Below are positions 4,625 to 23,232 of a stretch of DNA of 64,000 nt, in pieces. Source of the stretch: Betaproteobacteria bacterium (GTDB lineage Bacteria > Pseudomonadota > Gammaproteobacteria > Burkholderiales > Rhodocyclaceae); NCBI GenBank assembly GCA_020621865.1, contig JAHRYW010000004.1, positions 1-64,000 of the forward strand, read 5' to 3'. The translations under genes were made by a program, and so were the position numbers. The notes under the pieces are model-generated. The model made no database searches, had not been told where the DNA came from, and saw nothing but the letters and a program-made list of their open reading frames with translations. How positions within the stretch are numbered: position 1 is the first letter of the stretch; the number at the start of each line of letters is the position of its first letter.

Positions 4625-5686
4625 ATGCTGACCCGACAGTTCTGGGCGGGCCGCAGGGTATTCCTGACAGGCCACACGGGATTCAAAGGCAGTTGGCTAT
4701 CGATATGGCTGAACGAACTGGGCGCGAGTCTCAGCGGCTATGCATTGGCGCCACCGACATCGCCGGCGCTTTTTGAGATCGCCAGGGTTGGCCAGTGCTT
4801 GACGTCGACGATAGGCGATATCTGCGATGCACCCCGGCTAACCTCCGCCATGCGAGCAGCGGACCCTGAGATACTCTTCCACCTGGCAGCCCAGCCTCTG
4901 GTTGGGGAAGGCTACCGCGACCCCGTCGGCACCTATGCGACCAATGTCATGGGAACGGTCAATGTGCTGGAGGCGGCACGATCGCTACCGAACTTGCGCG
5001 CCGTAGTCGTCATCAGCACCGACAAATGTTACGCCAATCACGAGACCGGCCAGGCCTTTCGCGAAAGCGACCCGCTGGGCGGCCACGACCCCTACAGTAG
5101 CAGCAAGGCCTGCACCGAACTGGTCAGCCACGCCTACCGCCAATCTTTTTTCGGCATGCGCGGCATTCATCTGGCAACGGCTCGGGCTGGCAATGTAATC
5201 GGCGGCGGCGACTGGGCGGCAAACCGGCTGCTGCCCGACCTACTCCACGCCTTCGAAAATGGCGAAACCGCCCTCCTACGTCAGCCGCAAGCCATTCGCC
5301 CGTGGCAGCACGTGCTCAATCCACTCGCCGGCTACCTGATGCTCGCCGAACAACTTTATGCGGGAACATCTGTCGAGCGCGCCTGGAATTTCGGGCCGGA
5401 CGGTTCTGACTGCATCACCACTGGCGATCTGGCCTCACTATTGGCCGAGCACTGGGGGGAACAGGCACGTTGGTCTGCCGATCCGACCGCAGAATTTCCA
5501 CACGAAGCAACACTGCTCCATCTAGATACCGCCGACGCCAAGAATATTTTAAATTGGCGCCCAAATTGGCCATTGACCGTAGCAATCGAGCAAACTGCCG
5601 CCTGGCAGCGCGCCTGGCTTTCCGGCGAAGACATGCAAGCCGTATGCCGTGTGCAAATCGCAAATTACTCCAAAAAAATATCATGA
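4625..5686 (+). CDS. rfbG: CDP-glucose 4,6-dehydratase
   Basis: This 353-residue extended SDR enzyme turns CDP-glucose into CDP-4-keto-6-deoxyglucose, using bound NAD. The N-terminal Rossmann motif reads [11 protein letters not shown]. The catalytic YxxxK is YSSSK (within [12 protein letters not shown]), preceded by the active-site Ser/Thr region VVISTDKCY. The C-terminal family block [15 protein letters not shown] is present. Length matches RfbG/DdhB (about 357). GGGGAGG precedes the ATG. The stop overlaps the rfbH start (ATGA). Confidence 0.96.
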
Positions 5687-6999
5687 CATTAGATGAAGAG
5701 AGACAAGAGATATTGCAGCGGGTTCGTGCTTACGCTGCACGCGCCACAGCAACTCCGGATTTCCAGCCTGGCAAAAGTCACATTCCGCCCTCAGGAAAAG
5801 TGCTGGGGGCCGATGAATTTGCGAATCTGGTAGATGCTGCACTGGACGGCTGGCTAACCACCGGGCGCTTCAACGCAAACTTTGAACAAAAGCTGGGCGA
5901 ATTCCTGGGCGCCCGACACGTTCTTACCTGCAACTCCGGCTCCAGCGCCAACCTTCTGGCGCTTACCGCCCTGACCTCGCCGCAACTGGGCGACCGCGCC
6001 CTGCGCCCCGGGGACGAAGTCATCACGGCAGCCGCGGGTTTTCCAACTACCGTCAATCCCATTCTGCAAAACGGCCTGATCCCCGTTTTCGTTGATTCCG
6101 AAATCCCAACCTACAACCCGTCGCCAGCTAGCATAGAAGCCGCCATCACGCCACAGACGCGGGCAATCATGCTGGCGCACACCCTGGGCAATCCCTTCGA
6201 TGCGCTCGCCGTGCGCGCTCTGGCCGACCGCCACAGACTGTGGCTCGTCGAAGACTGCTGTGACGCACTCGGCTCGACCCTAGCTGGACGCAAGGTGGGC
6301 AGCTTCGGCCACATCGGCACGCTGTCGTTCTATCCGGCCCACCATATCACCATGGGTGAGGGCGGTGCCGTTTTCACATCCGATACCCAGTTGAAGAAAA
6401 TCCTGGAATCCTTCCGCGACTGGGGCCGCGACTGTTACTGCGCACCCGGTTGCGATAACACCTGTGGCAAGCGCTTCGACTGGCAACTCGGCGAACTTCC
6501 GGCGGGTTACGATCATAAATACGTCTACTCCCACCTCGGCTACAACCTGAAAATCACCGACATGCAAGCCGCCGTCGGACTTGCCCAACTGGCCCGCGTC
6601 GATGAGTTCATCGCAACGCGCAAGCGCAACTTTGCCGATTTGCACAATCAGCTCTCTGATTTACAGGAATTTTTGATCCTGCCCGAGGCAACGCCGGAGA
6701 GCGATCCGTCCTGGTTTGGTTTCCCGTTGACGCTGCGTGACAACGCCCCGTTCGACCGCGTTGAATTATTGCGCTACCTCGATCAGCACAAGGTCGGCAC
6801 GCGCCTGCTGTTCGCCGGCAACCTGACCCGCCAACCTTACATGTCCGGTCGGAACTATCGCATTTCGGGATCACTGGAAAATGCCGACTACATCATGCGA
6901 AACACCTTCTGGCTCGGCATCCACCCCGCGCTGAACTCAAACATGCTCGCCTATGTTGCGGAGCAGATCAAAACCTTCATGGGAGTGAATTTCGAATGA
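5683..6999 (+). CDS. rfbH: CDP-4-keto-6-deoxyglucose-3-dehydrase (E1), PMP and [2Fe-2S] enzyme
   Basis: This 438-residue protein belongs to the DegT/DnrJ/EryC1 fold but is the dehydrase E1 rather than an aminotransferase. The lysine that would bind PLP is replaced by His in [14 protein letters not shown] (His220-His221), as in the Yersinia E1. The [15 protein letters not shown] stretch gives the cysteines for the [2Fe-2S] cluster. With a reductase (E3, RfbI/DdhD) it removes the 3-hydroxyl. No rfbI-like gene is in the window, so the electron donor must be elsewhere. The start is the ATG at 5683 overlapping rfbG; the longer frame back to 5470 is an extension inside rfbG. Confidence 0.96.
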
Positions 7000-8855
7000 C
7001 GCCCAGAATGCGGGTTGCCGACTACATCGCGCAACGTTGTGCCGAGGCCGGCGCGCGACACGTATTTTTGGTCACCGGCGGCGGAGCGATGCATTTGAAC
7101 GATGCCTTTGCCCGCCACCCTCTGTTGTCACCCGTCTGTTTCCATCACGAACAAGCGGCCGCCATGGCGGCGGAAGGGCACTACCGAACCTCGGGCCGCC
7201 TGGCCATTCTCAACGTAACCACGGGACCGGGCGGCATCAATGCCTTGAATGGCGTCTACGGCGCCTATGTCGACTCAATTGCCATGGTGGTGGTTTCGGG
7301 GCAGGTCAAGCGCGAAACCTATCTTCGCAATTACCCGCAACCCTTGCGGCAACTCGGCGACCAGGAAGTGGACATCGTCAGCATGGCCCGACCGGTCACC
7401 AAATACGCCACGACCGTTCAAGATCCATCCGATATTCGCCGCATCGTGGACAAGGCAATCTACCTGGCCACACAAGGCCGCCCCGGCCCGGTGTGGATTG
7501 ACGTCCCGGTTGATATCCAGGCAATGCTCATCGATCCGGATGAGTTATCCGGTTGGGACGTCACAGATCGGCAAGCGCTGCTAGACGACCCTGACACTTG
7601 CCAGAATACGCGCGCCTGGCTAGAAAATCCGCCAGCCCAAAACTTCGCAACAGCGCTGGATTCACTACTGGGCGCATTGAAAAAAGCCAAGCGCCCCGTG
7701 TTGATGGCAGGCACGGGCATTCGTCTTTCCGGAATGCAGGAAGCCTTTCTTGATCTATGCACCCGGCTCGGCATACCCGTTGTTACTGGTTGGAACGCCC
7801 ACGATTCACTGACTGACGATCACCCCTGCTACGCCGGGCGCCCAGGAACGGTCGGCGACCGCGCCGGCAACATCACCGTACAAAATGCAGACTTGCTGAT
7901 CATTCTTGGCTGCCGCCTGAACATCCGCCAGATCAGTTACAACTGGCGCAGTTTCGCTGCCGATGCCTACAAATTCATGGTCGACATCGATGAGGCAGAG
8001 TTAAACAAGCCAACCCTGTCCATCGATTACAAAATTCACGCCAATCTGGCTGATTTCGTCCCCGCCCTGCTTCAGCGCTTAGACGATTACCAGCCGCCCT
8101 GCGACCATCAAAACTATCTCCAGTGGTGTCGCGAACGGGTCAGCCGTTATCCGGTCGTTAGCGCCGAACAGCGTACGACAAGCCCCCCCTTGAACCCATA
8201 CCACTTTATCGAACTGTTGTTCACCAGTTTGGACCAGGAAGCCGTGGTGGTTACGGGGAATGGCTCCGCCTGCGTCATGGGTTTCCAGGCTGCCCGGCTG
8301 CGGGCAGGGCAAAGGCTGTTTACCAATTCCGGTGACGCCTCGATGGGATACGACCTGCCGGCGGCCATCGGCGCCTGTTTCGCCCGCGACCGGCAACGGG
8401 TCATCTGCCTTGCCGGCGATGGCAGCTTGATGATGAACATCCAGGAACTGCAAACCCTCGTTGGCTACGAGTTGCCCGTGAAGGTCATTGTGCTGAACAA
8501 CGCGGGATACCATTCGATCCGCCAGACCCAGACAGCGTATTTCTCCGATAACCTGTTTGGAATCGGCCCGGAAAACGGCGTCAGCCTGCCCGATTTTGTC
8601 GCCGTCGCAAAGGCCTTTGGACTGCCCGCGCGCCGCGTCGACAGCGCCGCAGAGTGGCTAGAAAAAGCAACCACGGACATGCTTTCAGCCCCGGGGCCGG
8701 CGCTGATCGAGGTCATCGTCGACCCTGCGCAAGGATTTTCTCCTAAATTGGCCTCAAGAAAGCTGGCAGATGGGTCGATGAGTACACCAGCCCTGGATGA
8801 TATGTCGCCGTTCCTTGAACGAGACGAACTAGCCAGTAACCGCTTTGCAGGTTAA
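6996..8855 (+). CDS. Thiamine diphosphate-dependent enzyme, acetolactate synthase-like (YerE candidate)
   Basis: This 619-residue protein has the three-domain plan of acetolactate synthase. The catalytic Glu of the Pyr domain is Glu52 ([12 protein letters not shown]). The ThDP-binding GDGS is at about 475-477, with NN about 28 residues on ([12 protein letters not shown]). A true IlvB is unlikely: no ilvN small subunit follows, and the gene overlaps rfbH. In Yersinia the ThDP flavoenzyme YerE is encoded with ddhABCD and transfers a two-carbon unit from pyruvate to CDP-3,6-dideoxy-4-ketoglucose, giving yersiniose. The same position here makes that role plausible, but a different acyl donor cannot be excluded. 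Confidence 0.85.
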
Positions 8856-8861
8856 CCCCAC

Positions 8862-9524
8862 ATGTACTCGACGATTGTCTATGACCTCGATGGCACGCTG
8901 GTCGATAGTGCAGCAACTGTTGCCGCACTATTGAATGACCTGCGCGCGGAGCGCGCCCTCCCTCCGCTGGACAAATCGTTTTACACCCCGTGGCTCAGTA
9001 TTGGCGGCAAAGCGATGGTCGCGGCTGCACTGGCCATTCCTGAGGCGGAGGCGCAAACCTGGCTCGATATTTTTCGCGCTCGCTATCTCGCATTACCAAC
9101 CGACAAGGCAACCATTTATCCGTCGGCCCATGACACACTTGCTGCCCTGCAGGCGGCAGGCATTCGCCTTGCTCTATGCACCAACAAGCCCCGCCCGCTG
9201 ACCGACAAGATCCTTGCGGAAACGGGACTGGGGGAATATTTTTCGGCGATTTGCGCCGGGCTCGACCTGCCCACCAGCAAACCCCATCCGGATAACCTGA
9301 ACACCTGCCTAGAAAAGCTCGACAGTCACCCAAGCGAGTGCATTGTCATCGGCGACAGCCGCGTGGATCAGGCATTGGCTGAAGCCTGCGGCGCGAGTTT
9401 CGGCTTTTTTCGCTGCGGTTACGACGATGGCGTTCTCCCCGAAGCCTGCTCACTAACGCTCCATCATCATTCAGAGATCTTCAACCTATTCTCATCTATC
9501 GACAAAAGGCCGAGCCATGAATAA
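8862..9524 (+). CDS. HAD-superfamily phosphatase, phosphoglycolate phosphatase-like
   Basis: This 220-residue protein has all HAD motifs. Motif I is DLDGTLVDS (nucleophile Asp8, acid Asp10), motif II a Thr in LCTNK, motif III the Lys in NKPRPL, and motif IV GDSRVDQ. The helical cap between motifs I and II puts it in subfamily IA with Gph and PGMB. In this operon it most likely dephosphorylates a sugar or acid intermediate rather than phosphoglycolate. It begins 7 bases after the ThDP enzyme and overlaps the aldolase gene by 8. Confidence 0.88.
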
Positions 9525-10326
9525 TTGCGAACGCAAAATGCTGAGTCTGCTCAAGACATTAAAAAATGAATATGGCTGCGTTGCCGTCAAGGCTGAATTC
9601 GAGGCCGAAGGCACACGCGTGGACGAGCTGCTACGCCTGATGGAAATTGCCCGCAAGGCCGACCTCAAGATCGGCCTCAAAGTTGGGGGCTGCGAGGCCA
9701 TGCGCGATCTGATTGAAAGCAAGCAGTTTGGCGTCGAATACATTATTGCGCCGATGGTTGAAACGCCTTATGCCCTGAGCAAATTCATCCAGGCAAAGGA
9801 CCATGTATATTCAAAGGATGAGCAGATCGATACCGCATTTCTGTTCAACCTGGAAACGCACACCACATTCAAATCGCTACCGGAAATGAGCCGCATGGCG
9901 GTTGCTGGTGGCTTAGCCGGCATTGTCTTTGGCCGGGTCGATTTTGCCGGTTCCATGGGCTGGAACCGTGAGGCGGTAAATTCGCCGGGAATGGCCGAGT
10001 TTTGCCAGGAGGCAGCCCGTCAATGCCGCGACAACGGCCTGGATATCGTTGTTGGCGGAGGCGTATCCGCCGACGCACTTCCGTTCTTGAACGATATCAG
10101 GCAAAGCCATCTGACTCGATTCGAGACACGCAAGGTCATTTTTGGCGCGAATGCGCTGGATGTCTCGGACATGAACGAGGGCCTGCGAGTCGCGGTGCAC
10201 TTTGAGCTACTCTGGTTGCAAAACAAGCGCGATTACCATGGTTTCATTCACCGGGAAGACAATGCCCGTATCGAGATGCTGGAGAAGCGCTGGCAAGTGC
10301 TTTCAGAATGCACCAACAACCACTGA
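9517..10326 (+). CDS. HpcH/HpaI (citrate lyase beta)-type aldolase family protein
   Basis: This 269-residue protein looks like a TIM barrel of the PEP/pyruvate superfamily. Visible landmarks are the early KAEFEAEG strand, the metal-site region [15 protein letters not shown], the [11 protein letters not shown] strand, [17 protein letters not shown] and [14 protein letters not shown]. HpcH/HpaI enzymes make or cleave pyruvate- or acetyl-derived aldol bonds with a divalent metal. Placed between a HAD phosphatase and a radical SAM gene in a sugar operon, it may extend a sugar by a pyruvate-type unit. That role is inference; the family is often found in glycan clusters with no assigned reaction. 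Confidence 0.75.
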
Positions 10327-11435
10327 ACAACTCAGAAACAAAGGCAACTCTCGTGACCGAAAAAAATATTGCTGCTGTTATTCAGCCGCGCATTCACGCT
10401 GCGGCGAAAGTCCCGCTGGAAGACCAGGTGCCTCTGGCGACGCCTTTCTCGGTACACATCGACGTCTGTAGCGTTTGCAATTACAAGTGCAGTTTTTGCT
10501 TTCAGGCGGACAGCCAGGCCATGAAAGCGGTCGGCCTGAAGCGCGGCATGATGAGCTTCGCGATGTTCAAGAAAATAGTCGACGAACTGAGTGCTTTTGA
10601 TCAGAAAATCAAAAAAATCAAGATCGGCAATCACGGCGAGCCGACACTTCACCCCGAGCTACCGGCCATGATCCGTTACGCTCGTGACAGTGGCACGGCC
10701 GAAATAATCGAGTTGTTCACCAACGCATCGCAACTCGAACCAACGCTCAACCAGGCATTGATCGACAGCGGCCTGCAGCGCATCAACATCTCGCTGGAAG
10801 GCTTGTCCGACGAGCGTTACCAGCAGGTCGCCGGGGTAAAGCAAAGCTTCGCGGCCATCGTCGAAGGCGTCCGTCACCTCTACTCCATTCGTGGCGACTG
10901 CAAAATTTACGTCAAGATTGCCGATCAAACCAGTGCGCTATCGCGCGACATCACGCAGAAGTTTGTGTTGAGCGATGCCGAACGCGACTATTTTTTCGAT
11001 ACCTTCGGGAATATCTGCGACGAAATTTTCATCGAAAAGGTTGTACCGCAGTGGGCCGAGGTGCAACTGGACAAGCAGAACCAGGTTTCCGAAACCGGCA
11101 TGTATGCCCAGAAGGTCAAGGTGGACAAGGATGTTTGCCCATTCATTTTCATGTACCTGCACTTCAACTGCGACGGCACCGTCAGCCCATGCACACTGGA
11201 CTGGCCACGCAAAGTCGTTATCGGCAACATCGAACAGCAGTCCGTCAAGGAGATCTGGAACGGTCAGCAGTTGCGTGCCCTGCAGGTTGCCATGCTCGAA
11301 GGCAAACGTTGCGACATCAATTTCTGCAAGAACTGCACAGCGCCGGTCGTTTGCGTCGAAGAGGATCTTGATCCGCACAAGGACAACCTGCTGAAAAAAA
11401 TTCGCCCGTTACTGGCCAAGGTATCGCATTCATGA
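10308..11435 (+). CDS. Radical SAM protein with SPASM-type C terminus (1st of 3)
   Basis: The 375-residue reading carries the radical SAM cluster CNYKCSFC (Cys57, Cys61, Cys64). A C-terminal cysteine set follows: [30 protein letters not shown]. That pattern fits a SPASM domain binding auxiliary Fe-S clusters. The [13 protein letters not shown] stretch is typical of SPASM proteins. The ATG at 10308 overlaps the aldolase gene by 19 bases; a GTG at 10353 would shorten the protein by 15 residues and is also possible. The substrate is unknown. SPASM enzymes modify peptides or carry out sugar dehydrogenation or epimerisation, and the latter fits here. Confidence 0.88.
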
Positions 11436-12271
11436 AAATTCTGATTCTCGGCTCCAACGGCTTCATCGGTCGCAACCTGGTGGATTATTTTGCCGCCGGC
11501 CCCCATCAGATTCTTGCGCCAAAGCGTGCCGAATTGAATCTGCTTGATCAGGACGCGACTGAAAACTATCTGCGGGAACAGCGCCCCGACGTAGTCATCA
11601 ACAGCGCCATCAACATCCAGTCTGCGGAAGCCAACCTGCAGATTTACTATAACCTCGAACGCTGTGCCGCCCACTTCGGGCGGTTGATCAACATTGGCTC
11701 GGGCGCCGAATATGCAGCACGCTACTACACGCCTCTTATGGCCGAATCCTATTTCGGTCTGAACATCCCCGCAGACACTTACGGCATTTCCAAGTTCTGT
11801 ATCGCCAAGGACATTGAGCGTTCGTCGCATGACTGCGTCAATCTTCGGGTTTTCGGCATTTTCGGCGAACACGAGGACCATAGCCGGCGCTTCATTTCGA
11901 ACAATATTTGTTCATCGATCCGCAACAACACCATCACGGTCAATCGCAATTCGATTTTTGATTACCTTGACGTCCTGGATTTTGCCAAAATCGTCGAGAA
12001 ATTCCTGACCATGTCTTTGGGATTCAAGTCCTACAATGTTTGCACGGCGACCCAGCGAAGTCTGGCTGAACTGGCAGGGGTCATCGACCGGGAAAGCGGC
12101 CGTCAAAATACCGTAACCGTTGCCAATCGCGATATCTTTTCGACCTACACCGGGGACAATCAGCGCTTGCTCGATGCGATTGGCGGCTTTCACTTCACGC
12201 CGATCGAAGACTCAGTCCGGCGCCTGTTCGCTTGGTATGAAGCCGAATTCGCCGCAGGTCGGATCGTATGA
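11432..12271 (+). CDS. NAD-dependent epimerase/dehydratase (extended SDR), paralogue A
   Basis: This 279-residue Rossmann protein starts [15 protein letters not shown] (GxxGxxG). It keeps the catalytic YxxxK as YGISK (Tyr117, Lys121). It shares a long block with the SDR at 16485-17402 (LRVFGIFGEHED, RFISNNI, FDYLDVLDFAKIVE), so the two arose by duplication. Expected role: reduction, epimerisation or dehydration of a nucleotide-linked sugar. It overlaps the preceding radical SAM stop and the next start by ATGA. Confidence 0.88.
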   Translation: MKILILGSNGFIGRNLVDYFAAGPHQILAPKRAELNLLDQDATENYLREQRPDVVINSAINIQSAEANLQIYYNLERCAAHFGRLINIGSGAEYAARYYTPLMAESYFGLNIPADTYGISKFCIAKDIERSSHDCVNLRVFGIFGEHEDHSRRFISNNICSSIRNNTITVNRNSIFDYLDVLDFAKIVEKFLTMSLGFKSYNVCTATQRSLAELAGVIDRESGRQNTVTVANRDIFSTYTGDNQRLLDAIGGFHFTPIEDSVRRLFAWYEAEFAAGRIV

Positions 12272-13569
12272 ATCCCCGACAGGCTGAATTGCTTGGCCAA
12301 TTAAGCGGCGTCCCGGTCATGATCTGGGGCGCCCGAATGACCGGACTTGGCCTGGTCAGACTCTGCCGAACCCATGGCATCAACGTCATTGGGTTCATCG
12401 ATTCGGATCCTGCATTTTCCGGCAAACTGATTGCAGGGCTACCCTGCCATCCCCCCGCAGCCCTGCCTGAAATCCACGCCCGGCATCCGATTCTTAAAAT
12501 AGTCGTAGCCGCGTCAACCAAAGAGAGCGAGATCAACCAGTTATTGGTGCAGCACGGCTTTTCGACAGCTGACTACATCAATTACTCACATTACTGCGAC
12601 CTTTTCTACACCGTCGACGTGATGGGGACCTGCAACCTCAAGTGTCTCTCCTGCCCCCATGGCGCAGGCGGTGAAGAGCGCCCCCGTGGCCTGATGACGT
12701 TGGACAATTATCGCCAAGTCATCGACAAGATCGTCGCCGAAAACGATCTGGTCACTCACATCAGCCTATACAGCTGGGGGGAGCCCTTCCTTAATCCATC
12801 CCTGCCGGAAATGGTTGCCGAACTACACCGGCGCGGGATTGCGGCAGCGCTATCGAGCAATCTATCGATCAAGAACGAGCATCTGTTGCACAAAGTTCTA
12901 CGTGAAAACCCCGAATATCTGAAAGTCTCGCTATCCGGGTTTTATCCAGAGGCCTATAACGATACGCACAGCGGCGGCAACATCCATCTCGTTCGCTCCA
13001 ACATGTTGCGGCTCCGGTATTACATCGACAAATACCGCCTCGATACGGTGGTTGATGTTAATTACCATCTCTACAACAACAATAACCGCCGCAACTTGCA
13101 AAAAATGCAAGAGTTCTGCGACGAACTTGGCTTCTTCCTCTCCACCACTTACGCCCTTGTCATGCCACTCGAACGTGTCATCGACAAACTAGAGGGCCGC
13201 CCAAGTCCAAGCACACTGGCCCTCGAAAGCAAATTGCTCGTCGGCATCGAGGAAGGCATCGCCTCTGCTACGGTCGAAGGCAAAAATGAGCCAAATTCCA
13301 AAATGGAATGCCCGTTTCTGGAAAACCAGACAATCATCAACTGGGATCTCAGCGTGCCTGTGTGCTGCACCACCTTCAACCGCGGGTCAAATATCGTCGC
13401 CGAGAACTTCCTGTTGGCCAGCAAATCCCAAATCAGCACCACCAAACATCAGGCAGCGATCTGCGCTACCTGCCAGCATCACAACCTGCCAGCCTACAAC
13501 CTAGGCCTGAACCGCAAGCAATGGGAAGCCGTCGCAGCTACCAAACCTAGCGAAGACCTGCCGCTCTAA
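12268..13569 (+). CDS. Rossmann-like domain fused to a radical SAM/SPASM protein (2nd of 3)
   Basis: This 433-residue fusion begins with a Rossmann-like domain (about 1-105: VMIWGARMTGLGLVRLC, then INVIGFIDSD). That domain resembles the nucleotide-binding modules in PglD-type and sugar C-methyltransferase proteins. The radical SAM domain follows with CNLKCLSC (Cys122, 126, 129) and HISLYSWGEPFL. A C-terminal cysteine set (ECPF, PVCC, CATCQHH) suggests an auxiliary cluster. Residues ASATVEGKNEPNSKM near 333-347 are encoded by a dispersed repeat also found in the FliK-like protein at 26823. Substrate unknown. Confidence 0.85.
   Translation: MNPRQAELLGQLSGVPVMIWGARMTGLGLVRLCRTHGINVIGFIDSDPAFSGKLIAGLPCHPPAALPEIHARHPILKIVVAASTKESEINQLLVQHGFSTADYINYSHYCDLFYTVDVMGTCNLKCLSCPHGAGGEERPRGLMTLDNYRQVIDKIVAENDLVTHISLYSWGEPFLNPSLPEMVAELHRRGIAAALSSNLSIKNEHLLHKVLRENPEYLKVSLSGFYPEAYNDTHSGGNIHLVRSNMLRLRYYIDKYRLDTVVDVNYHLYNNNNRRNLQKMQEFCDELGFFLSTTYALVMPLERVIDKLEGRPSPSTLALESKLLVGIEEGIASATVEGKNEPNSKMECPFLENQTIINWDLSVPVCCTTFNRGSNIVAENFLLASKSQISTTKHQAAICATCQHHNLPAYNLGLNRKQWEAVAATKPSEDLPL
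13264..13312 (+). repeat. Dispersed TGCTACGGTC element, copy 2 (inside a radical SAM gene)
   Basis: TGCTACGGTCGAAG (13266-13279) is followed by AAAAATGAGCCAAATTCCA and the dyad ATTCCAAAATGGAAT (13295-13309). Aligned with copy 3 at 27522, about 32 of 36 bases agree, and both are read in the same frame (ATVEGKNEPNS against ATVEAKNGPKS) in unrelated proteins. Confidence 0.6.
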
Positions 13570-13571
13570 CC

Positions 13572-14705: not shown

Positions 14706-14773
14706 TCGCGCCATTCATGACAAGAAGCCAATTAAATTTAAGCGACAATCCAAAGTGTCAACAGGAGCCGCGA

Positions 14774-16513
14774 ATGATCAGAGAACTCAAAAAAAAGATT
14801 CTTTTTCTTGTCCCTGTCCATATTTCATATGACTCCTACACATCCCCTCCAAAGAACGCGAGGACAGTGACAAAAAATGGTCGCACCCTAAACACGCTGG
14901 CGACCGACCTGCCACTGGGGCCACTCTCGATATCTGCATATTTAAAAAAGCATTACGAACTCGACGTCAGACTGGTCGACTTCAATGTAGAAGTAAGCGC
15001 ATTAGATGACTTCAGTTATCCATCTTTCGCAGTATTTGCCAAAGAATATTTAGCAAAGATCCGCGAGATGGATTTTGAACCCGACATAGTCGGTATTTCG
15101 AGCTTATTCAGCCCCTCTTATCAAAACTTCATTGAGTTGGGTGCAGTAGCCAAAGCCATTTGGCCAGACACATTCCTTGTGGGCGGAGGAAATATCCCAA
15201 CCAACGCTTACCAGCATATCAACCAAACAGGAGGGTTTGGATTCTTTGATGCACTATGCTTCGGTGAAGGCGAAAAACCGATGCTAGGGTTAATCAGTGC
15301 GGAGTCTCCGGCAACGTACGCAAGTCAATCCGACTCCTGGATCACTGCCAAAAAACTAGAAGATTTTTTCGTTCCGAAGCATGATTTCCTTGTCGATCTC
15401 GATGAAATCCCCTTCTACGATTACGCACTTTGCGATCATGGCAAGCACAGCTTAAATCCTGTCATGACCTCGTATGCTGCTCATTCGGACAGCATGGGTT
15501 ACCACATCATGACCTCGCGTGGCTGCCCATTTCATTGCACATTTTGCGCATCACACCAAGTACACGGGCGAAAGATGCGTTATCACTCAATTGATCGCGT
15601 ATTTTCGGATATCAACCGACTGGTTGACCAATATGCCGCCAAAACCCTGATATTTCAGGATGACCATTTCATGGCGGATAAAACCCGAGTACTTCGTATT
15701 CTTGAGTTCATCGAGCAAAAAAAGCTCAATGCCATTTTCCAAAATGGCCTAACGCTCTATTCGCTTGACTTCGAGACGCTCTCAGCCTTCAAGCGCGCTG
15801 GCGTTAACCAGCTCGTTTTGCCGATTGAAAGCGGCAGCGAAAAGGTCCTTAAGCATCAAATGAAAAAGCCTCTCAAGATGAGTATCTCCAGGCAAGTCAC
15901 CAACGATTGCCGCAAGTTGGGGATCTACACCAACGCAAACATACTCATCGGCCTTCCTGGCGAAACGCACCAGGATATTGAATCTGCACGACTCAACCTG
16001 CGAAATATTCCCGCTAACTGGTACCACGTTGTTTGCGCAAGCCCTGTCGTGGGGAGCGAGATCCACAAGATATCTTCAGAAAATGGCTATATCTCAGGGG
16101 ATGTGCTCGGGGCCGATTATCGATTGGCTGTTATCAACACGCCTGACTTCAGCGCTGATTACATTCAAGATATGCAATATTTATTCAATCTTGAACTCAA
16201 CTTTTTGTACAACAGTGACCTCCGTTTAGGCAATCTGGCAACTGCTGAATCCGGGTTCAGAAATGTGCTGAATCTGCGTCCAGATCACCTGATGGCAAAT
16301 CTCTGTCTCGCTTACGTTCATGCCAAACGCGAAGAGTTTTCCAAGGCCGCTGAATGCCTGAATAAATGTCTTGGCGACAACAGCTCCGATAGTTGGGATA
16401 AATATCTGGCGCTAATGGACTTCAGCATACCGACAGACGTAAATGACATCATCGGATCCTTCGAACACAAATGGGCCCAATCGCATGAAGAAAATCCTAC
16501 TCACAGGTGCTGA
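14774..16513 (+). CDS. B12-binding radical SAM protein with C-terminal TPR-like repeats (3rd of 3)
   Basis: The start is put at the ATG at 14774 because AGGAG (14762-14766) precedes it at ideal spacing; an upstream ATG at 14717 lacks one. The 579-residue protein has an N-terminal cobalamin-binding-like domain (LPLGPLSISAYLKK, VDFNVEVSAL, IVGISSLFSPSYQNFIEL, LVGGGNIPTN). A radical SAM domain follows with CPFHCTFC (Cys251, 255, 258). TPR-like helices lie near the C terminus (AESGFRNVLNLRPDH, KAAECLNKCL). The class includes methylases and ring-forming enzymes. A TPR tail is unusual and may dock a partner. Substrate unknown. Confidence 0.87.
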   Translation: MIRELKKKILFLVPVHISYDSYTSPPKNARTVTKNGRTLNTLATDLPLGPLSISAYLKKHYELDVRLVDFNVEVSALDDFSYPSFAVFAKEYLAKIREMDFEPDIVGISSLFSPSYQNFIELGAVAKAIWPDTFLVGGGNIPTNAYQHINQTGGFGFFDALCFGEGEKPMLGLISAESPATYASQSDSWITAKKLEDFFVPKHDFLVDLDEIPFYDYALCDHGKHSLNPVMTSYAAHSDSMGYHIMTSRGCPFHCTFCASHQVHGRKMRYHSIDRVFSDINRLVDQYAAKTLIFQDDHFMADKTRVLRILEFIEQKKLNAIFQNGLTLYSLDFETLSAFKRAGVNQLVLPIESGSEKVLKHQMKKPLKMSISRQVTNDCRKLGIYTNANILIGLPGETHQDIESARLNLRNIPANWYHVVCASPVVGSEIHKISSENGYISGDVLGADYRLAVINTPDFSADYIQDMQYLFNLELNFLYNSDLRLGNLATAESGFRNVLNLRPDHLMANLCLAYVHAKREEFSKAAECLNKCLGDNSSDSWDKYLALMDFSIPTDVNDIIGSFEHKWAQSHEENPTHRC

Positions 16514-17402
16514 AGGTTTCGTTGGCCGTAATCTGTTAGAAGCCTTAAGCCGCCGTAGCGATTTCGTGCTTCGCGCCCCGCTGCAACATGAAGTCGACCT
16601 AACAAACAGCAATGAAGTCGCGCAATGCCTTGAAACCTTCCAGCCTGATCTGATCATCCATTCAGCGACGTCGAACACAGTCGGCAAGGGTTACGACACC
16701 GACGTATGCGAACAAAATTTGCGTATGTTCTTCAATTTGTTGCGCTATCGACCGCAAGGCTGCCTCATCTACACCCTCTGCAGTGGCTCAAGTTACAACC
16801 GCGACAGCTGGATCCCAAAGATGCCTGAGGAATACCTTGGGGATAACATTCCCACAGACAGCCAAGGATTTTCGAAGTTTGTCATCGCCAGTTACGCGAG
16901 GCGTCTCGTTGACGTGGTCACTCTCCGGATATTTGGAATATTCGGCAAATACGAAGATTACCGGTACAAATTCATTTCAAACACGATTGCCAAACGCATT
17001 GCCGGCTTGGAGGTAACTCTTTTCCGAGACGCAGTCTATGACTATCTTGACGTTGCCGACTTCTGCGAAATCGTAGAGCAACTGGTCGACCGCAATGTCC
17101 GATCTGGCGAATTCAATGTCACCCCGGACAATTCGATCAAACTGTCACAAGCCATTGAGGCGGTTGACCGCTGCCTTGGAGTCAACCTGGGATATCGGAT
17201 CATTACTCAAGGGCTAGGCAAGACCTATACGGGATGCAATAAAAAACTCCGTGCGATACTCAAAGACTATCAGTTCTCACCAATCGACGTTTCAATCCAC
17301 CGATTGACCAAGCATTACCTTGATAACCAACATCAGATTGATGCCGAAGCCTTGAAGAACGATCAGTTGCTGCAACATGCAAAGTCGATCAACAGCCTAT
17401 GA
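16485..17402 (+). CDS. Extended SDR, paralogue B, catalytic Tyr replaced by Gln
   Basis: The ATG at 16485 opens KKILLTGAEGFVGRNL (GxxGxxG), so the 305-residue form is preferred; an upstream frame from 16443 adds 14 unrelated residues. It overlaps the preceding gene by 29 bases. It is a clear paralogue of the SDR at 11432 (LRIFGIFGKYED, KFISNTI, YDYLDVADFCEIVE). Where that protein has YGISK, this one has QGFSK: Gln127 replaces the catalytic Tyr while Lys131 is kept. Ordinary SDR chemistry should be lost or changed, so it may act as a binding partner of its paralogue or as an altered enzyme. Confidence 0.86.
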   Translation: MKKILLTGAEGFVGRNLLEALSRRSDFVLRAPLQHEVDLTNSNEVAQCLETFQPDLIIHSATSNTVGKGYDTDVCEQNLRMFFNLLRYRPQGCLIYTLCSGSSYNRDSWIPKMPEEYLGDNIPTDSQGFSKFVIASYARRLVDVVTLRIFGIFGKYEDYRYKFISNTIAKRIAGLEVTLFRDAVYDYLDVADFCEIVEQLVDRNVRSGEFNVTPDNSIKLSQAIEAVDRCLGVNLGYRIITQGLGKTYTGCNKKLRAILKDYQFSPIDVSIHRLTKHYLDNQHQIDAEALKNDQLLQHAKSINSL

Positions 17403-18454
17403 TTACAACACCTTTGCGCGATGATTTTTCTTTGCTGGCAACAGACGCAGAAAGCTACGCCTGTTTTCAGGGGAAAAATGTATATATCACAGGTGCCACA
17501 GGCCAAATAGCCTGGTATCTGATACGCCTACTCGCGTTCCTGATCGATTCCGGGAAATTGGATTGCCAACTCAGCGCCCATGTTCGCAGCCAGGCACGAT
17601 TGAGCGAAAAATACCCCGACCACGCGTCGCTCCCCTGCCATTTTGTGGTGGATACCGATGCTGCAGCATATTTGGCAACAGCCCGTTGCGACATGCTAAT
17701 TCATTGCGCCAGCATGGCCAGTCCAAAGCACTTTGCCAAGACACCTGTCGATGTCATGGAGGTCAACGGTATCCTCACTCAGAAGCTACTTGAGCAACTG
17801 CGCATCAATAACCCGGCATGTCGCTTCGTCTATCTCAGCACGACCGGCGTCACGGGTTTTATTCCCGATGAGCAACGCCCGACTTCCGAAGCCGACTACG
17901 GCCCCCTCAGTTGTACCGATCTGGAAAATTGCTATTTGGAGTCAAAACGTTTTGGCGAAATGCTCTGCCTAGCGTATTTCCGTCAATACGATATTCCGAC
18001 ACTCATCGTACGCCCATCGATTACCTATGGCCCCGGATTCGACCTCGATGACGGGCGGTCCTATGCGGATTTTGTTCGCTGCCTGTTATCGGCAATACCG
18101 ATAAAACTCACGAGCGACGGCAGTGCGATCAGAAACTTCCTATACATCAGTGACTTTATTTCTGGGTTACTCCTGACAATCACTAAAGCCACACCTGGAT
18201 CTATATATAACATCGCCTCCCCCTATCCGTTGAGCATTTTAGAACTTGCAACGCAATTGAATCACTCGGCTCTCGACAAATCGCTGGGATCTGTTGCGCA
18301 CACCCAGCCCGATCAGGCTGCGATCTCACGAGTCAACTTTAAAAGCACCAATGCTTCTGTCGACAAACTGATCGGATTGGGCTGGCAGCAAAAAATCCCG
18401 GCTATTGAGGGTTTCAAAAAAACAATATTGCACTATATGGAACAACAATCATGA
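17399..18454 (+). CDS. NAD-dependent epimerase/dehydratase (extended SDR), third in operon
   Basis: This 351-residue protein has the Rossmann motif YITGATGQIAWYL (last Gly of GxxGxxG replaced by Ala). It keeps YLESK as YxxxK, and has LSTTGVTGF and the late SDR block LIVRPSITYGPGFD. General features recall UDP-glucuronate decarboxylase and dTDP-glucose 4,6-dehydratase relatives. It is more distant from the two paralogues at 11432 and 16485. It overlaps both neighbours by 4 bases. The exact reaction cannot be told. Confidence 0.88.
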   Translation: MITTPLRDDFSLLATDAESYACFQGKNVYITGATGQIAWYLIRLLAFLIDSGKLDCQLSAHVRSQARLSEKYPDHASLPCHFVVDTDAAAYLATARCDMLIHCASMASPKHFAKTPVDVMEVNGILTQKLLEQLRINNPACRFVYLSTTGVTGFIPDEQRPTSEADYGPLSCTDLENCYLESKRFGEMLCLAYFRQYDIPTLIVRPSITYGPGFDLDDGRSYADFVRCLLSAIPIKLTSDGSAIRNFLYISDFISGLLLTITKATPGSIYNIASPYPLSILELATQLNHSALDKSLGSVAHTQPDQAAISRVNFKSTNASVDKLIGLGWQQKIPAIEGFKKTILHYMEQQS

Positions 18455-19380
18455 CCATTAACGAGCTGAAAAAATCATTTTCTGATGGCAGCATCAGCAA
18501 ACCCGAATTCATCGCAATGGCCTATGAGGAATTCCACAATATCCTATTCGAGTACGCATCCCAGCTTAACGATGTCGATATCAAGGAGATATTAATTGAT
18601 GGCTCCGGAGTCATCTTTACGACCAGGAAAACCGGCACGAAGATTCGTTGCCAGCCCGGCGACCATCGATCTCCGCCAATCGAAACGTTCAATTTTTCAG
18701 ACTTTGAGCCAGCAGAATCAGAAATGATGGAAAAGCTTTTCGACGAACACCAGATTTTCTATGACATCGGCACCAATATTGGCTGGCACTCGCTCAACAT
18801 GTCTGCAAAACACCGCAAAGCCAAGTTCTACTGCTTCGAGCCCATTCCAAAAACTTATCAACAATTAATAGACAACATAAAATTAAATAACGCCAAAAAT
18901 ATCAACTGCTACAACACTGCACTATCCGATCAGCCGGGTAATCAGAAATTCTTTTACTATACGGCCTGTTCCGGCAATGCCTCTGCGGCCAATTTATCGG
19001 AGCGCTCTGACGTCAGCGAAATTGTTTGCCCACAAACAACCCTCGACATGTTTGTTGCAGACAATTCAACACCTCCTCCGGATTTCATTAAATGCGATGT
19101 TGAAGGTGCCGAGCTAATGGTGATCAAAGGTGGCGTAGATACCATCGCAAAACACCAGCCAATTTTAATGGTTGAAATTTTGAGAAAATGGTCATCAAAA
19201 TTCAGCTACAACCCGAATGAAATCTTTCAGCTTCTATATAGCTTTGGTTACTGTGCGTTCACCACTGACGGCAGGGGTTTATTTGAATTTTCTGAAATGG
19301 ATGAATCAACAATTGAAACAAATTTTTTCTTCCTTCACTCCACGAAGCACAAGCGCCTGATTACTAAATTTAGCCATTAG
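18451..19380 (+). CDS. FkbM-family methyltransferase
   Basis: This 309-residue protein has the SAM motif FYDIGTNIGWHSLNMS near residue 105, then FYCFEPIPKTYQQL and the FkbM hallmark FIKCDVEGAELMVIKGG. FkbM enzymes O-methylate sugars of glycans and polyketides. The likely role is capping a hydroxyl of the glycan built by this operon. The gene is markedly AT-rich: 18841-18900 contains only 15 G/C of 60. That differs sharply from the flanking flagellar genes and suggests transfer. Confidence 0.9.
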   Translation: MTINELKKSFSDGSISKPEFIAMAYEEFHNILFEYASQLNDVDIKEILIDGSGVIFTTRKTGTKIRCQPGDHRSPPIETFNFSDFEPAESEMMEKLFDEHQIFYDIGTNIGWHSLNMSAKHRKAKFYCFEPIPKTYQQLIDNIKLNNAKNINCYNTALSDQPGNQKFFYYTACSGNASAANLSERSDVSEIVCPQTTLDMFVADNSTPPPDFIKCDVEGAELMVIKGGVDTIAKHQPILMVEILRKWSSKFSYNPNEIFQLLYSFGYCAFTTDGRGLFEFSEMDESTIETNFFFLHSTKHKRLITKFSH

Positions 19381-19431
19381 CACACTGCATCCTTTCCAAA
19401 TAACCTTGCTGACTTCGCCCTAATAATAGCC

Positions 19432-22400
19432 ATGGATCCTACCAGTCAATTCTGTTTTTCCGCCCATCGCCCGCGCTCAATCAGCAAAAGTGCCGGCGTG
19501 CCATTTTACATATTTGCTCCGGACTACACAGAAACTTCTGGTGGAATTCGCGTACTACATTATCTCTGCCACATACTAAATGAGCTTGGCGAGGAAGCCT
19601 ATGTAATAAATGCGAGAGAGATTTCAAAATCCATACGCGCCCCTCAACTGACCTATGCCAAGCTTGAAGAACATTATGTTTCAGGCAAAAATCCTGTAAC
19701 TATTTACCCAGAAATTATCCATGCCAACCCGACCAGCACCCCGCTGATCGTACGCTGGCTATTAAATATCCCCGGGCATCTTGGAAAACCCATCGAGTTC
19801 GAAGAAAACGACTTAATATTCTTCTATGAAGCCTGGTGCCTTCCAAAGGGAATGGATGGGGCACCACTTTTTATTCACCCGGTTGTTGATGCCGTATTTA
19901 ATAACGAAGACAACCCAGATGACACCCAGCGTGAACTTGAGTGTTATTACGCCAACAAATATCACCTCGGCAGAAAGCCCATCCTGCCAGAGCACAAACA
20001 CCTAGTCAGTCTTGGCCAAGAAATAAAGCGGACGCCAGAAGAAATCGCCGGCATCTTGCGAAAATCTAAGGTTTTATACTGCTACGAACCATCCGGAATC
20101 ATCAGCGAGGCACAAGCTTGTGGTTGCCCTGTCCTATTGATCCGATCCAGTTACTTTCCACTCCCTGACGACGACACTCATCATCAAATTCCCGGACTGG
20201 CGATATACGGGGATGAGAACGCATATGAGAAGGCTGCGAATACACTTCCACTAATTTCTGAGCGACACAGGCGAAATCGTGCCAATTCCTGGGAAATGGC
20301 AATAGGCCTCATTGAGAAAGTGTATGCCGCCCACACCAGCCTGGAAGCAAATGGGAAACCGCTGTTAAATAGTGGGCAAAAACTTTGGGCGCTCCCGAAA
20401 TCGGAACGCCCATCAGCACTCGATCAACTTAAAGACTATTATTTGGGCACAGGCCTTTACTTTAAAGATATTGATGGCCAAGAGCGAGTTACGCCTAGCC
20501 TGGAGCAAGCCTACGTAAAACGGTCTGTGGTATCAAAAAGCCAGCTCGATCGTGCCCACCAAAGCTGGTTGGACAAACGTGGCTTCATTCAAACGGACAC
20601 CCTTTTCATCGACTATCCGAAGCAATCAAATGCACTGCTTACCAGCCAATTTCATCTATTGATTCGCCTAAATCAGGGCGAAGTTTCGTTATTGGCAGAT
20701 ACACTCGATGCGCTGGCTCTGCAAATCACTGACCAATGGATTTTGGACGTTGTTACCGAATTACCCAGCCCTGATGGAATAGAGGATGTACCCAACGTAC
20801 GCTGGCATACGGTACCGTCGCTCGACCAAGCCAAATGGAAAATTGACAATCTAGTTGCCGCCTCGTCTTGCAACTGGATCATTGAACTCCCCGCTGGCGT
20901 GCGCCCGGATGTGCTTTATCTGGTTCGCCTGAACAAAGAAGCGGAGCGCTCACCCAACGCGGTCGCCTTTTATGTAGATGACGATTGTTGCGACGAATCG
21001 GATGTGCGCTTTTCGCCTCGCTACAAGCCGGCGCTGAACCCCTCGTATTTGCAAGCCACGGACTTGGCCGGGCCGCTATGCGTCAGCCGGCAGGCTTGGG
21101 TCTCCTCCGGTGGAGCCAGCCAAACCAGCTGTAGCCCTTGGTATGACCAGTTGATCAGGATTGCCGATACCCATGGCTGGCAATCGATTGTCCATATTCC
21201 GGACATGCTGCTGACCTATTTCAAGAGCTTCCCCAGCGATATTGAATCTTGCATTAACGTGCTGAACACCTCGCTGAAGTGCAAAGAAGTTCCTGCGGAA
21301 GCATTGCATCTTACGCATGACAGCTGGGAGATTCGCTATTCCCCGGCGGAATTCCCGGCAATTTCCATCGCTGTTCTATCGCAAGGGCAACTGGAATTTA
21401 TTACTCGTTGCGTAAGCAGCCTTATCAAAGTCACCCGATATCGAGATTTTGAAATCCTGATTGTTACCCAGGCTATTGAAGGAGACCCCGATTACCAGGA
21501 CTGGTTGGCGGCCATTCAGGAGCGAACGGACACTCCTCGCATCCGCGTGCTTTTCGCCGAGTCCGGCTCAAGTTATACGGCACTTTGCAATCAGGCGATG
21601 GCTGCGGCTGCCAACGACTGGGTCGTCTTGCTGCGTGAAGAAGTGGTTATCGTGCAAGACCAGTGGCTCGAAGAATTGGCCCGCCTAACGCTGCTGCGTG
21701 AAGTAGCGGCCGTTTCGCCACTCATACATCATCCGGGCAATGCGCACATTGCTGTATCGGGTAGCGTGCTTGGCCTGATGGGTGAATTTGGGTCGCCTTA
21801 CGCCAGTTCGGCAGCACTCGGCGACGCCGGCTATTTGGATTACCTCAAAGTGACACGAGATGTGGCCGCACCACCATCGTCATGTCTACTGGTACGCAAG
21901 GCCAGTTTTGAAGAGGTGGGCGGAATGGATGCCAGCGCCTACGGAAACGAATTCGGAGAAATAGACCTGAGTCTGAAGTTCCGCTCAATCGGCATGCGAA
22001 TTCTTGTTCATCCAAGATCAAGCGTTGTCTTTGGGGGAGAAACAAGCCTTTATGACTTGGGATGCAGGCTTGAATCGCTGTCAAAAAAGCGGGAAAGCAG
22101 CCGTGCTCTTCGTCGCCGCTGGGGAAGCCAGGCACTCAAAGATCCCTACTGGAATCCTAATCTGTCGCTTTCTTCCTCCACGCCTATTCCCGAAACAGAG
22201 TTTCGGGCGCAATGGCAATACATGCCATGCGACAAACCGCGCATTCTGGCTCACCCCCTGGGCAATGGCCAAGGCGATTTCCGGGTTACATCACCTTTGA
22301 CTGCCGTCCGAAAGGCCGGACTGGCCATGGAGTGTGTCTGGCGACAAAAGATCAGCAGCATGGCCCGTTATTTCACGGCAGCAGAAATTGCGCAAATGGC

Positions 22401-23232
22401 ACCAACCACGGTGATCATCCAGAACTACATTCACGACATTGCCCTTGCCGCGCTGGACGACTGGCACGCATCAAGCGACCGGCCATTCATTGTTTATACC
22501 CTCGACGACCTGATCAACGATCTGGATGTGACCAACCCCTTCCGCAAACATATCCCGCCAAACTCTCGTTCACGCTTCAAATATGCGCTTGAGCGCTGCG
22601 ACCGCCTTGTTTTGTCGACAGAATATTTGGCCGATACCTATCGCCACTTCATTTCAGATATCCGTGTAGTCCCGAATCGCCTGGAAAAAGAGGTCTGGTT
22701 GCCACTTGTCAGCGAACGGCGAACTGCGCCCAAGCCTCGCGTTGGCTGGGCTGGCGGCACGACGCACCAGGGCGATCTCATCTTGCTCAAGGAAATCATT
22801 GAACAAACGCGAAACGAGGTGGATTGGGTGTTTTTTGGCATGTGCCCTGACGAACTGCGTCCTCTCATCGCAGATTTTCACGATCTGGTGCCATTTGACG
22901 AATACCCGGCACGCTTGGCGACACTCAATCTGGATATTGCGGTTGCCCCACTGGCAATAACGGACTTCAATCGCGGCAAAAGCAATTTGCGCCTTCTGGA
23001 GTATGGTGCCTTGGGTATTCCCGTCGTGTGCACAGACATTGACCCTTACCAAAACAGCCCGGCGTGCCGCGTCCAGAACAAAGCAAGTGAGTGGGTTGAA
23101 GCGCTACGCGAAAGAATCAATGATCCCGAAGCCAGGGAGCGCGAAGGCAACACGATGCGAGACTGGGTCCATCGGAATTTCCTGCTGGAAGACCACCTCG
23201 ATCAATGGCTGGCCGCTCACTTGCCAGGGTAG
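19432..23232 (+). CDS. Multidomain glycosyltransferase, 1266 residues
   Basis: At least three units are visible. The N-terminal part (about 20-310) resembles a GT-B glycosyltransferase (FYIFAPDYTETSGGIRVLHY; LYCYEPSGIISEAQACGCPV). The middle (about 640-880) is a GT2-like GT-A fold (AISIAVLSQGQLEFITRC). At its nucleotide site, near residue 733, it reads LLREEVV in place of the usual Asp-rich DxD, so this domain may be inactive. The C-terminal part (about 960-1266) is another GT-B unit (RVGWAGGTTHQGDLILL near 1102; LRLLEYGALGIPVV). Such fusions assemble O-antigen or flagellin glycans. Gene end and fliC are only 138 bases apart. No clear Shine-Dalgarno precedes the ATG. Confidence 0.88.
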   Translation: MDPTSQFCFSAHRPRSISKSAGVPFYIFAPDYTETSGGIRVLHYLCHILNELGEEAYVINAREISKSIRAPQLTYAKLEEHYVSGKNPVTIYPEIIHANPTSTPLIVRWLLNIPGHLGKPIEFEENDLIFFYEAWCLPKGMDGAPLFIHPVVDAVFNNEDNPDDTQRELECYYANKYHLGRKPILPEHKHLVSLGQEIKRTPEEIAGILRKSKVLYCYEPSGIISEAQACGCPVLLIRSSYFPLPDDDTHHQIPGLAIYGDENAYEKAANTLPLISERHRRNRANSWEMAIGLIEKVYAAHTSLEANGKPLLNSGQKLWALPKSERPSALDQLKDYYLGTGLYFKDIDGQERVTPSLEQAYVKRSVVSKSQLDRAHQSWLDKRGFIQTDTLFIDYPKQSNALLTSQFHLLIRLNQGEVSLLADTLDALALQITDQWILDVVTELPSPDGIEDVPNVRWHTVPSLDQAKWKIDNLVAASSCNWIIELPAGVRPDVLYLVRLNKEAERSPNAVAFYVDDDCCDESDVRFSPRYKPALNPSYLQATDLAGPLCVSRQAWVSSGGASQTSCSPWYDQLIRIADTHGWQSIVHIPDMLLTYFKSFPSDIESCINVLNTSLKCKEVPAEALHLTHDSWEIRYSPAEFPAISIAVLSQGQLEFITRCVSSLIKVTRYRDFEILIVTQAIEGDPDYQDWLAAIQERTDTPRIRVLFAESGSSYTALCNQAMAAAANDWVVLLREEVVIVQDQWLEELARLTLLREVAAVSPLIHHPGNAHIAVSGSVLGLMGEFGSPYASSAALGDAGYLDYLKVTRDVAAPPSSCLLVRKASFEEVGGMDASAYGNEFGEIDLSLKFRSIGMRILVHPRSSVVFGGETSLYDLGCRLESLSKKRESSRALRRRWGSQALKDPYWNPNLSLSSSTPIPETEFRAQWQYMPCDKPRILAHPLGNGQGDFRVTSPLTAVRKAGLAMECVWRQKISSMARYFTAAEIAQMAPTTVIIQNYIHDIALAALDDWHASSDRPFIVYTLDDLINDLDVTNPFRKHIPPNSRSRFKYALERCDRLVLSTEYLADTYRHFISDIRVVPNRLEKEVWLPLVSERRTAPKPRVGWAGGTTHQGDLILLKEIIEQTRNEVDWVFFGMCPDELRPLIADFHDLVPFDEYPARLATLNLDIAVAPLAITDFNRGKSNLRLLEYGALGIPVVCTDIDPYQNSPACRVQNKASEWVEALRERINDPEAREREGNTMRDWVHRNFLLEDHLDQWLAAHLPG

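Follow-up and report, generated by a model that had tools for sequence, protein, structure and literature searches.

Gene content of the island

The window, as we call the whole 64,000-nucleotide stretch analyzed here, lies on contig 9 of a 2.9-Mb genome assembly (G000) that is 75% complete, and it carries a long series of sugar-synthesis genes leading into the flagellin gene fliC. All genes of this island are on the + strand, in the order rfbF, rfbG, rfbH, a thiamine diphosphate (ThDP) enzyme, a HAD phosphatase, an HpcH-type aldolase, RS1, SDR1, RS2, a C-methyltransferase (CMT), RS3, SDR2, SDR3, an FkbM-family methyltransferase, a giant glycosyltransferase (GT), fliC and fliD, where RS denotes radical S-adenosylmethionine (SAM) proteins and SDR short-chain dehydrogenases/reductases. 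Comparison genomes and loci are given by G and L codes, respectively.

An initial annotation had described positions 4625–23232 as an island of fifteen genes proposed to provide a modified flagellin sugar. The island is real, and its open reading frames (ORFs) and families are as described: three radical SAM proteins score above the Pfam cut-off, three SDRs are present in addition to rfbG, and CMT, FkbM and the giant GT are followed by fliC. Fourteen of the genes lie within this interval; the fifteenth, rfbF (3486–4256), is located just outside it. The earlier gene list was incomplete in one respect, as it left out the ThDP (acetolactate-synthase-like) enzyme at 6996–8855, which is the most informative gene of the island.

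The statement that nearly all genes overlap by four bases or similar was too strong. Among the 13 junctions from rfbG to the giant GT, five are exact 4-base overlaps (rfbH/ThDP, RS1/SDR1, SDR1/RS2, SDR2/SDR3 and SDR3/FkbM), two are overlaps of 8 and 29 bases, and six are gaps of 2–51 bases. Because the junctions span only -29 to +51 bases, the genes from rfbG to the GT plausibly form one transcript. Upstream, rfbF and rfbG are separated by 368 bases (4257–4624) in the window; L022 and L023 have these ORFs overlapping. The G+C content is 0.43–0.50 over RS3, SDR2, SDR3 and FkbM and 0.52–0.62 in 16 other measured genes, a contrast that would be in keeping with mixed acquisition of the island genes.

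A predicted core for C4-branched CDP-sugar synthesis

The first three genes all exceed curated family cut-offs: rfbF, for glucose-1-phosphate cytidylyltransferase (TIGR02623, 451 bits, cut-off 300); rfbG (4625–5686), for CDP-glucose 4,6-dehydratase (TIGR02622, 462.6 bits, cut-off 278); and rfbH (5689–6999, with the longest ORF opening at 5470), for CDP-4-keto-6-deoxyglucose 3-dehydrase (NF011936, 732 bits, cut-off 423). The CDP-sugar enzyme set of the YerE-type pathway is therefore present, and rfbF is the sole TIGR02623 match over cut-off in this incomplete assembly. The ThDP enzyme (PF02775, PF02776 and PF00205, with a GDG motif) has as its closest solved structure 8rph, at 413.7 bits in a PDB sequence search, followed by 5ahk at 229 bits. 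The entry 8rph is JanthE, which is called YerE-like in excerpts of PMC12188165. According to excerpts of PMC12247030, YerE decarboxylates pyruvate and moves the activated acetaldehyde to CDP-3,6-dideoxy-4-keto-D-glucose, and ErwE, which forms erwiniose from the same sugar nucleotide, does not accept pyruvate and favors longer acids, for example 4-hydroxy-2-oxo acids. Since the nearest solved relative of the ThDP enzyme is YerE-like, and RfbF, RfbG and RfbH would be expected to give CDP-4-keto-3,6-dideoxyglucose, the core probably yields a C4-branched CDP-dideoxyhexose of the yersiniose or erwiniose type. The initial annotation missed this core because it omitted the ThDP gene. Its assertion that no described pathway has this set consequently holds only by half, since the core can be recognized as YerE/ErwE-type.

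Two further genes may supply the donor. The HAD phosphatase (8862–9524; PF13419) resembles phosphoglycolate phosphatases but falls under the cut-off of TIGR01449 (152 bits, cut-off 180), and the HpcH/HpaI-like aldolase (9517–10326) yields a confident structural model (pLDDT 94) with HpaI/HpcH class II pyruvate aldolases as top Foldseek matches (E 4.8e-8) and malyl-CoA lyases and pyruvate kinases as nearly equal ones. Aldolases of the HpaI/HpcH type make 4-hydroxy-2-oxo acids. In a family alignment of 34 sequences, which leaves out L089 and L063, Lys55, E113 and D142 are invariant, and we take the latter two to occupy metal-ligand places.

Relatives of this aldolase were confirmed at 166 places in a collection of 84,980 species genomes. 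Among the best 80 of the 166 loci (L020–L099), 72 have a ThDP gene (a match of at least 200 bits) close by, 67 have an rfb gene, 63 have both and 4 have neither. Aldolase, ThDP enzyme and CDP-dideoxysugar genes are a widespread unit, and this sharing suggests that the aldolase product may be the ThDP donor.

The commonest extra partner of the aldolase family is a DHQ-synthase-like protein (41 of the 80 loci) with an SDR (40 of 80), found in several phyla (for example L025, L029 and L032); both counts are underestimates owing to an overlap filter. Such partners could open a way to branched sugars that bear a carbocycle, bradyrhizose being one example. Mutual exclusion between the DHQ-synthase-like gene and RS1 was considered, as none of the eight RS1 loci among the 80 carries the former, but was dropped because G993 has both.

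Radical SAM and other putative sugar-modifying proteins

Downstream of the aldolase lie RS1 (10353–11435; PF04055 and PF13186), a radical SAM/SPASM protein whose likely start, placed from orthologues, is the GTG at 10353 and not the longest-ORF start at 10308; SDR1 (11432–12271; PF01370), which is RmlD/epimerase-like and 34% identical to SDR2; RS2 (12268–13569; PF04055), with an N-terminal Rossmann-like domain and C-terminal cysteines; and CMT (13572–14705; PF13489 and PF08484). These are followed by RS3 (14717–16513; PF02310 and PF04055), a radical SAM protein with a B12-binding domain and, at its C-terminus, a weak TPR match; SDR2 (16485–17402; PF01370), whose ORF opens at 16443 and whose likely start at 16485 was judged by eye against the usual Rossmann start; SDR3 (17399–18454; PF01370); and FkbM (18451–19380; PF05050 and TIGR01444).

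The CxxxCxxC motif is invariant in all three radical SAM families: C57/C61/C64 in RS1 (10 sequences), C122/C126/C129 in RS2 (9) and C270/C274/C277 in RS3 (5). The best PDB sequence matches of RS1 are BtrN, DesII and MoaA. The RS2 model (pLDDT 80, with low confidence at 123–139, 225–236 and 337–346, the first of which covers two of the three cluster cysteines) matches the fold of DesII first and that of BlsE third, at 14–15% identity (15% for DesII). RS1 and RS2 are related across the radical SAM core (hhalign probability 98.5), and the N-terminal domain of RS2 resembles the C-terminal domain of CMT (hhalign E 1.5e-5, probability 80%), hinting that these two proteins may have a common substrate or carrier. 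RS3 has a clear B12-binding domain (PF02310, 45.8 bits, cut-off 32.1) and AprD4 as its best PDB sequence match. Among NCBIfam profiles a P-methyltransferase family comes nearest, far under cut-off, and no curated cut-off was reached in the 25 families listed out of 27.

The giant glycosyltransferase and flagellin

The giant GT (19432–23232, 1266 amino acids) has a GT2-like middle and a GT1-like C-terminal part, with PF13641 above cut-off and PF13692, PF13524 and PF00535 below; a PDB sequence search with it gave no match. It is followed by fliC (23371–24060; PF00669 and PF00700), encoding a flagellin of 229 amino acids that is the presumed acceptor, and by the filament cap gene fliD (24661–26004; PF02465 and PF07195). 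Sugar and glycosyltransferase genes are therefore directly beside flagellin, as in flagellin glycosylation islands.

Relatives of the giant GT occur in 83 of 150 genomes of the family, the window's own included. At E ≤1e-80, 46 genomes (own left out) carry a member, of which 12 have no flagellin among the matches listed, leaving 34 for comparison. Flagellin lies within 12 kb of the GT gene in 29 of these 34 and within 3 kb in 21; in 26 of the 29 it is downstream on the same strand, and the other five genomes have flagellin on other contigs only. In G746, one of the 12, flagellin is 1.8 kb from the GT.

The slot occupied by the island also has different contents in genomes of the same genus. 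In the window it is bounded by a GGDEF protein (1732–3489, +; PF00990), which is 81% identical (BLASTP 475/583) to its positional counterpart in G218, where PseB, PseC and a NeuB-like gene precede fliC and fliD. G851 has PseB, PseC, PseG, PseI and a giant GT ahead of fliC. The borders are kept (GGDEF and fliC–fliD in G218 and G111, giant GT–fliC in G851) and the contents differ, so that the slot has the character of a variable flagellin island with an exchangeable sugar cassette. A different CDP-sugar set stands between GGDEF and fliC in G111 (L153, L157), comprising rfbF, rfbH, RS1-like, RS3-like and glycosyltransferase genes, then fliC and fliD.

The flagellins of the window and of L123, L124 and L125 are 218–229 amino acids long and share a mid-protein gap and a T/S-rich loop, which is a candidate acceptor region. 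A rule linking the cassette to short flagellins was dropped, as L024 has a 589-residue flagellin ORF near its cassette and the four short ones are close kin.

A consensus scan for sigma-28-like promoters found four sites in the window, against 0.25 expected, including one ahead of fliC (23257–23283, +, with three mismatches); a similar box was seen by eye in L123, L124 and L125. In the same scan no site lies ahead of the sugar genes, and one match, at 10901, falls inside RS1. A sigma-54 scan was not above chance (6 found, 3.45 expected). Further sigma-28-like sites lie at 46810–46836 (-), just upstream of a 666-residue ORF (44791–46791, -), and at 54832–54858 (+). A second flagellin-like protein of 317 amino acids (43822–44775, -; Flagellin_N and Flagellin_C) is probably FlgL, from its place beside the 666-residue ORF.

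Recurrence of the cassette

The island is more than a chance assembly, as the order of cassette, giant GT, fliC and fliD repeats in three other genomes (L020/L123, L022/L124 and L023/L125) and G729 carries the gene set re-ordered. CMT, RS1, SDR1 and RS2 occur together, in varying order, in 8 of the 80 aldolase loci (L020–L024, L046, L072 and L089; CMT is cut by the contig end in L021), and again in G729, G993 and G994. In Pelagibacter, for instance, L089:3717–10801 reads CMT-RS1-SDR1-RS2-ThDP-HpcH.

We compared 11 close RS1 carriers, namely the window, L020, L022, L023, L024, L046, L072, L089, G729, G993 and G994, leaving out L021 with its 4.7-kb contig. Seven have flagellin within about 9 kb, two do not, and two end too near a contig edge to be judged; the flagellin-linked carriers span at least three lineages. 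In Pseudoalteromonas neustonica, the cassette, here without RS3, is flanked by a Maf glycosyltransferase and a GT2/NeuB block; flagellins lie to either side, and FleQ is farther out. G994 has the ThDP enzyme, HpcH, CMT, RS1, SDR1, RS2, an opposite-strand block, SDR2, SDR3 and FkbM, with flagellin 1.6 kb further. In L024, fliC and fliD follow about 9 kb past CMT on the same contig and strand, with opposite-strand genes between; the end of this locus was located in G303:C135, a flagellin-bearing contig of 31,284 bases. In G111 and G253, RS1-like genes of a more distant kind (39%) also have flagellin about 11 kb downstream on the same strand.

The initial annotation had proposed examining the co-occurrence of the three radical SAM families with fliC. 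We rejected a strict association: RS3 is missing from the stretches examined of L024, L046, L072 and L089, and flagellin linkage holds for only seven of the 11 RS1 carriers noted above.

In G545, a fusion ORF of 1656 amino acids (L135:2792–7762, -; also L160 and L161) joins an RS2-like part (residues 33–334, 182 bits) to a giant-GT part (807–1655, 410 bits). Its 34-kb contig also carries rfbF and rfbG, an RS3-like gene, three RS2-like genes in tandem, and fliC and fliD, with all of these on a single strand.

The cassette is rare. A search for RS2 in 369 genomes of the class (E 0.001) gave matches in 77, and besides the window only G545 and G585 exceeded 180 bits (34–38% identity), the rest scoring at most 53 bits. 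Four of 150 family genomes carry RS2 at E 1e-20, own included, and five of 349 genomes of the order carry RS1, own and two distant ones included; RS2 of P. neustonica matches only its own genome among 108 of its genus. Carriers include Azonexus fungiphilus DSM 23841 (L020/L123) and Pseudoalteromonas neustonica PAMC 28425.

Proposed pathway and alternatives

The genes, their families, order, recurrence and linkage are directly observed, and from them we infer every reaction that follows. RfbF, RfbG and RfbH would produce CDP-4-keto-3,6-dideoxyglucose, as their equivalog-level families indicate, and the aldolase and HAD phosphatase would supply a 4-hydroxy-2-oxo acid. By comparison with JanthE, YerE and ErwE, the ThDP enzyme would decarboxylate this acid and place the acyl remainder onto C4, giving a branched sugar with a tertiary alcohol. 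Putative redox editing and C-methylation of the CDP-bound branched sugar by RS1, SDR1, RS2 and CMT might be followed by additional C- and O-changes by RS3 (B12 type), SDR2, SDR3 and FkbM. The giant GT, judging from its position and by comparison, would transfer the finished sugar to flagellin Ser/Thr ahead of export.

We therefore read the locus as a flagellin glycosylation island whose exchangeable cassette is likely to make a C4-branched, radical-SAM-edited CDP-dideoxyhexose that is put on flagellin, with a probability of roughly 0.7. Flagellin as the target, as initially proposed, is well supported by position and beyond mere adjacency, because the giant-GT family tracks flagellin (29 of 34), the slot content is swapped in sister species, and the cassette is linked to flagellin elsewhere, in Pseudoalteromonas and G994. 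The broader proposal, that this is a new protein-linked monosaccharide, a C4-branched CDP-dideoxyhexose with side chain or ring rebuilt by RS1 and RS2 (and by a B12 radical SAM enzyme in some hosts), from a portable cassette plugged into flagellin, LPS-like or other surface glycosylation, seems to us to stand at even odds.

Several observations weigh against this reading of the locus. The aldolase barely passes its Pfam profile (PF03328, 26.4 bits, cut-off 25) and found no match in a PDB sequence search, and its Lys55 presumably sits at the place of HpaI Arg70, in an alignment by eye. The ThDP protein beside the aldolase in L089 is only 28% identical to that of the window. There is no E3 reductase for RfbH (DdhD/RfbI) among the island genes, a genome-wide search not having been made. 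The top NCBIfam profile of RS1 is a tungsten-cofactor oxidoreductase maturase (82 bits, cut-off 380), and the top 16 fold matches of RS2 also hold RiPP maturases (5why, SuiB and SkfB) and viperins, so that a sugar as the substrate of RS1 and RS2 is not proved. As to the target, the coordinates place no flagellin closer than 90 kb in Jezberella (L046), the 0.6-Mb genome of Pelagibacter (L089) gave no flagellin match, and in G729 and G993 flagellin is confined to other contigs, the cassettes lying 2–3 kb from a contig edge; the G729 neighbors are GT41, GT47, GT1 and repeat proteins. Because of these four genomes, the branched sugar is not intrinsically a flagellin sugar, and the cassette is not flagellin-only.

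The sugar might instead belong to lipopolysaccharide (LPS) or another surface glycan, with the place beside fliC incidental or shared. The related cassettes of L046 (among ABC transporter, GT10-like, GNT-I-like and GT2 genes), G729 and L089 fit such a role, and excerpts of PMC12247030 assign YerE-like enzymes to cell structures such as LPS. Yet the family of the giant GT goes with flagellin, sister species carry a variable flagellin island in this slot, at least three lineages put the cassette at flagellin, L024 is linked to it, and in G545 an RS2-like protein is fused to the giant GT; for the window we consider this explanation unlikely. More room is left, if still with considerable doubt, for a plain pyruvate donor, which would give a yersiniose-like core with a two-carbon branch and leave HpcH and HAD for other uses such as building a substituent. 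YerE prefers and JanthE accepts pyruvate (excerpts of PMC12247030), and the catalytic residues of HpcH look atypical; against this, the company that HpcH keeps with ThDP and rfb genes across phyla points to one shared path, and ErwE takes 4-hydroxy-2-oxo acids and not pyruvate (same excerpts).

At least one radical SAM enzyme, particularly the B12-type RS3, might instead methylate residues of flagellin itself. Going by family names, B12 radical SAM enzymes methylate proteins or peptides elsewhere; FliB, a [4Fe-4S] flagellin lysine methyltransferase, offers a precedent for methylating flagellin directly; and RiPP maturases are among the RS2 fold matches. The solved structures nearest to RS1 and RS2, however, are of enzymes that act on sugars or nucleotides, L089 has RS1 and RS2 in a genome without a flagellin match, and RS3 occurs in G729, where flagellin is on another contig, all of which makes direct methylation quite improbable. 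A carbocycle-bearing product like bradyrhizose is suggested by the DHQ-synthase-like and SDR partners (41 and 40 of the best 80 loci), but neither the window's island nor the eight RS1-bearing loci contain a DHQ-synthase-like gene, G993 alone having it together with RS1, and we regard this outcome as highly improbable.

If the editing of a C4-branched CDP-sugar for flagellin is correct, RfbFGH, HpcH, ThDP enzyme, RS1, SDR1, RS2 and CMT would be a defined gene set for an uncharted nucleotide sugar. It would also assign a predicted class of substrate to two radical SAM reactions, and yield a hypothesis on the donor for a widespread family of aldolase-like proteins.

Relation to known systems

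In the open-access literature we found no report, among the matches listed, that places radical SAM enzymes in the synthesis of flagellin sugars, subscription papers being outside this scope. Flagellin glycosylation islands have been surveyed in 307 enterobacterial strains (PMC4875605). As in the window, sugar-synthesis and GT genes lie beside fliC, vary highly between relatives and frequently include FkbM methyltransferases, and one type (4 strains) has CDP-4-keto-6-deoxyglucose genes; the terms "radical SAM", "rfbH" and "yersiniose" are absent from its main text. To these the window adds three radical SAM proteins and a ThDP enzyme predicted to branch at C4. Campylobacter surface-glycan clusters likewise place radical SAM and methyltransferase genes together: excerpts of PMC8743553 report a radical SAM protein within a methylation/capsule cluster, and in excerpts of PMC6321876 the phase-variable genes include those for radical SAM, SDR and methyltransferase proteins. 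These clusters, likened here by description only, are not assigned to flagellin in those excerpts. The bradyrhizose O-antigen cluster is similar in that its 11 sugar genes have been proposed to make a bicyclic sugar of unusual type (excerpts of PMC4743980).

Among individual enzymes, DesII, BtrN and BlsE are the nearest solved relatives of RS1 by sequence (BtrN and DesII) and of RS2 by fold (DesII and BlsE), but identity is low, RS2 has an N-terminal domain in common with CMT, and its presumed substrate is a CDP-branched sugar. The aldolase shares the TIM-barrel fold of class II HpaI/HpcH enzymes, with E113 and D142 invariant in its family, whereas identity in the fold matches is 11–16%, the score lies near the Pfam cut-off, and K55 apparently replaces Arg70.

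The closest parallel is the YerE/ErwE/JanthE pathway, with which the window shares rfbF, rfbG, rfbH, a YerE-like ThDP enzyme and SDRs, and perhaps, as the aldolase suggests, a hydroxy-2-oxo-acid donor like that of ErwE. Its known products are mainly LPS sugars (excerpts of PMC12247030): ddhA–D, yerE and yerF appear as O-antigen genes in excerpts of PMC4509608, and those of PMC4753412 confirm the role of YerE and its LPS setting. The window adds HpcH, HAD, RS1–RS3, CMT and FkbM to this pathway, and sets it at flagellin.

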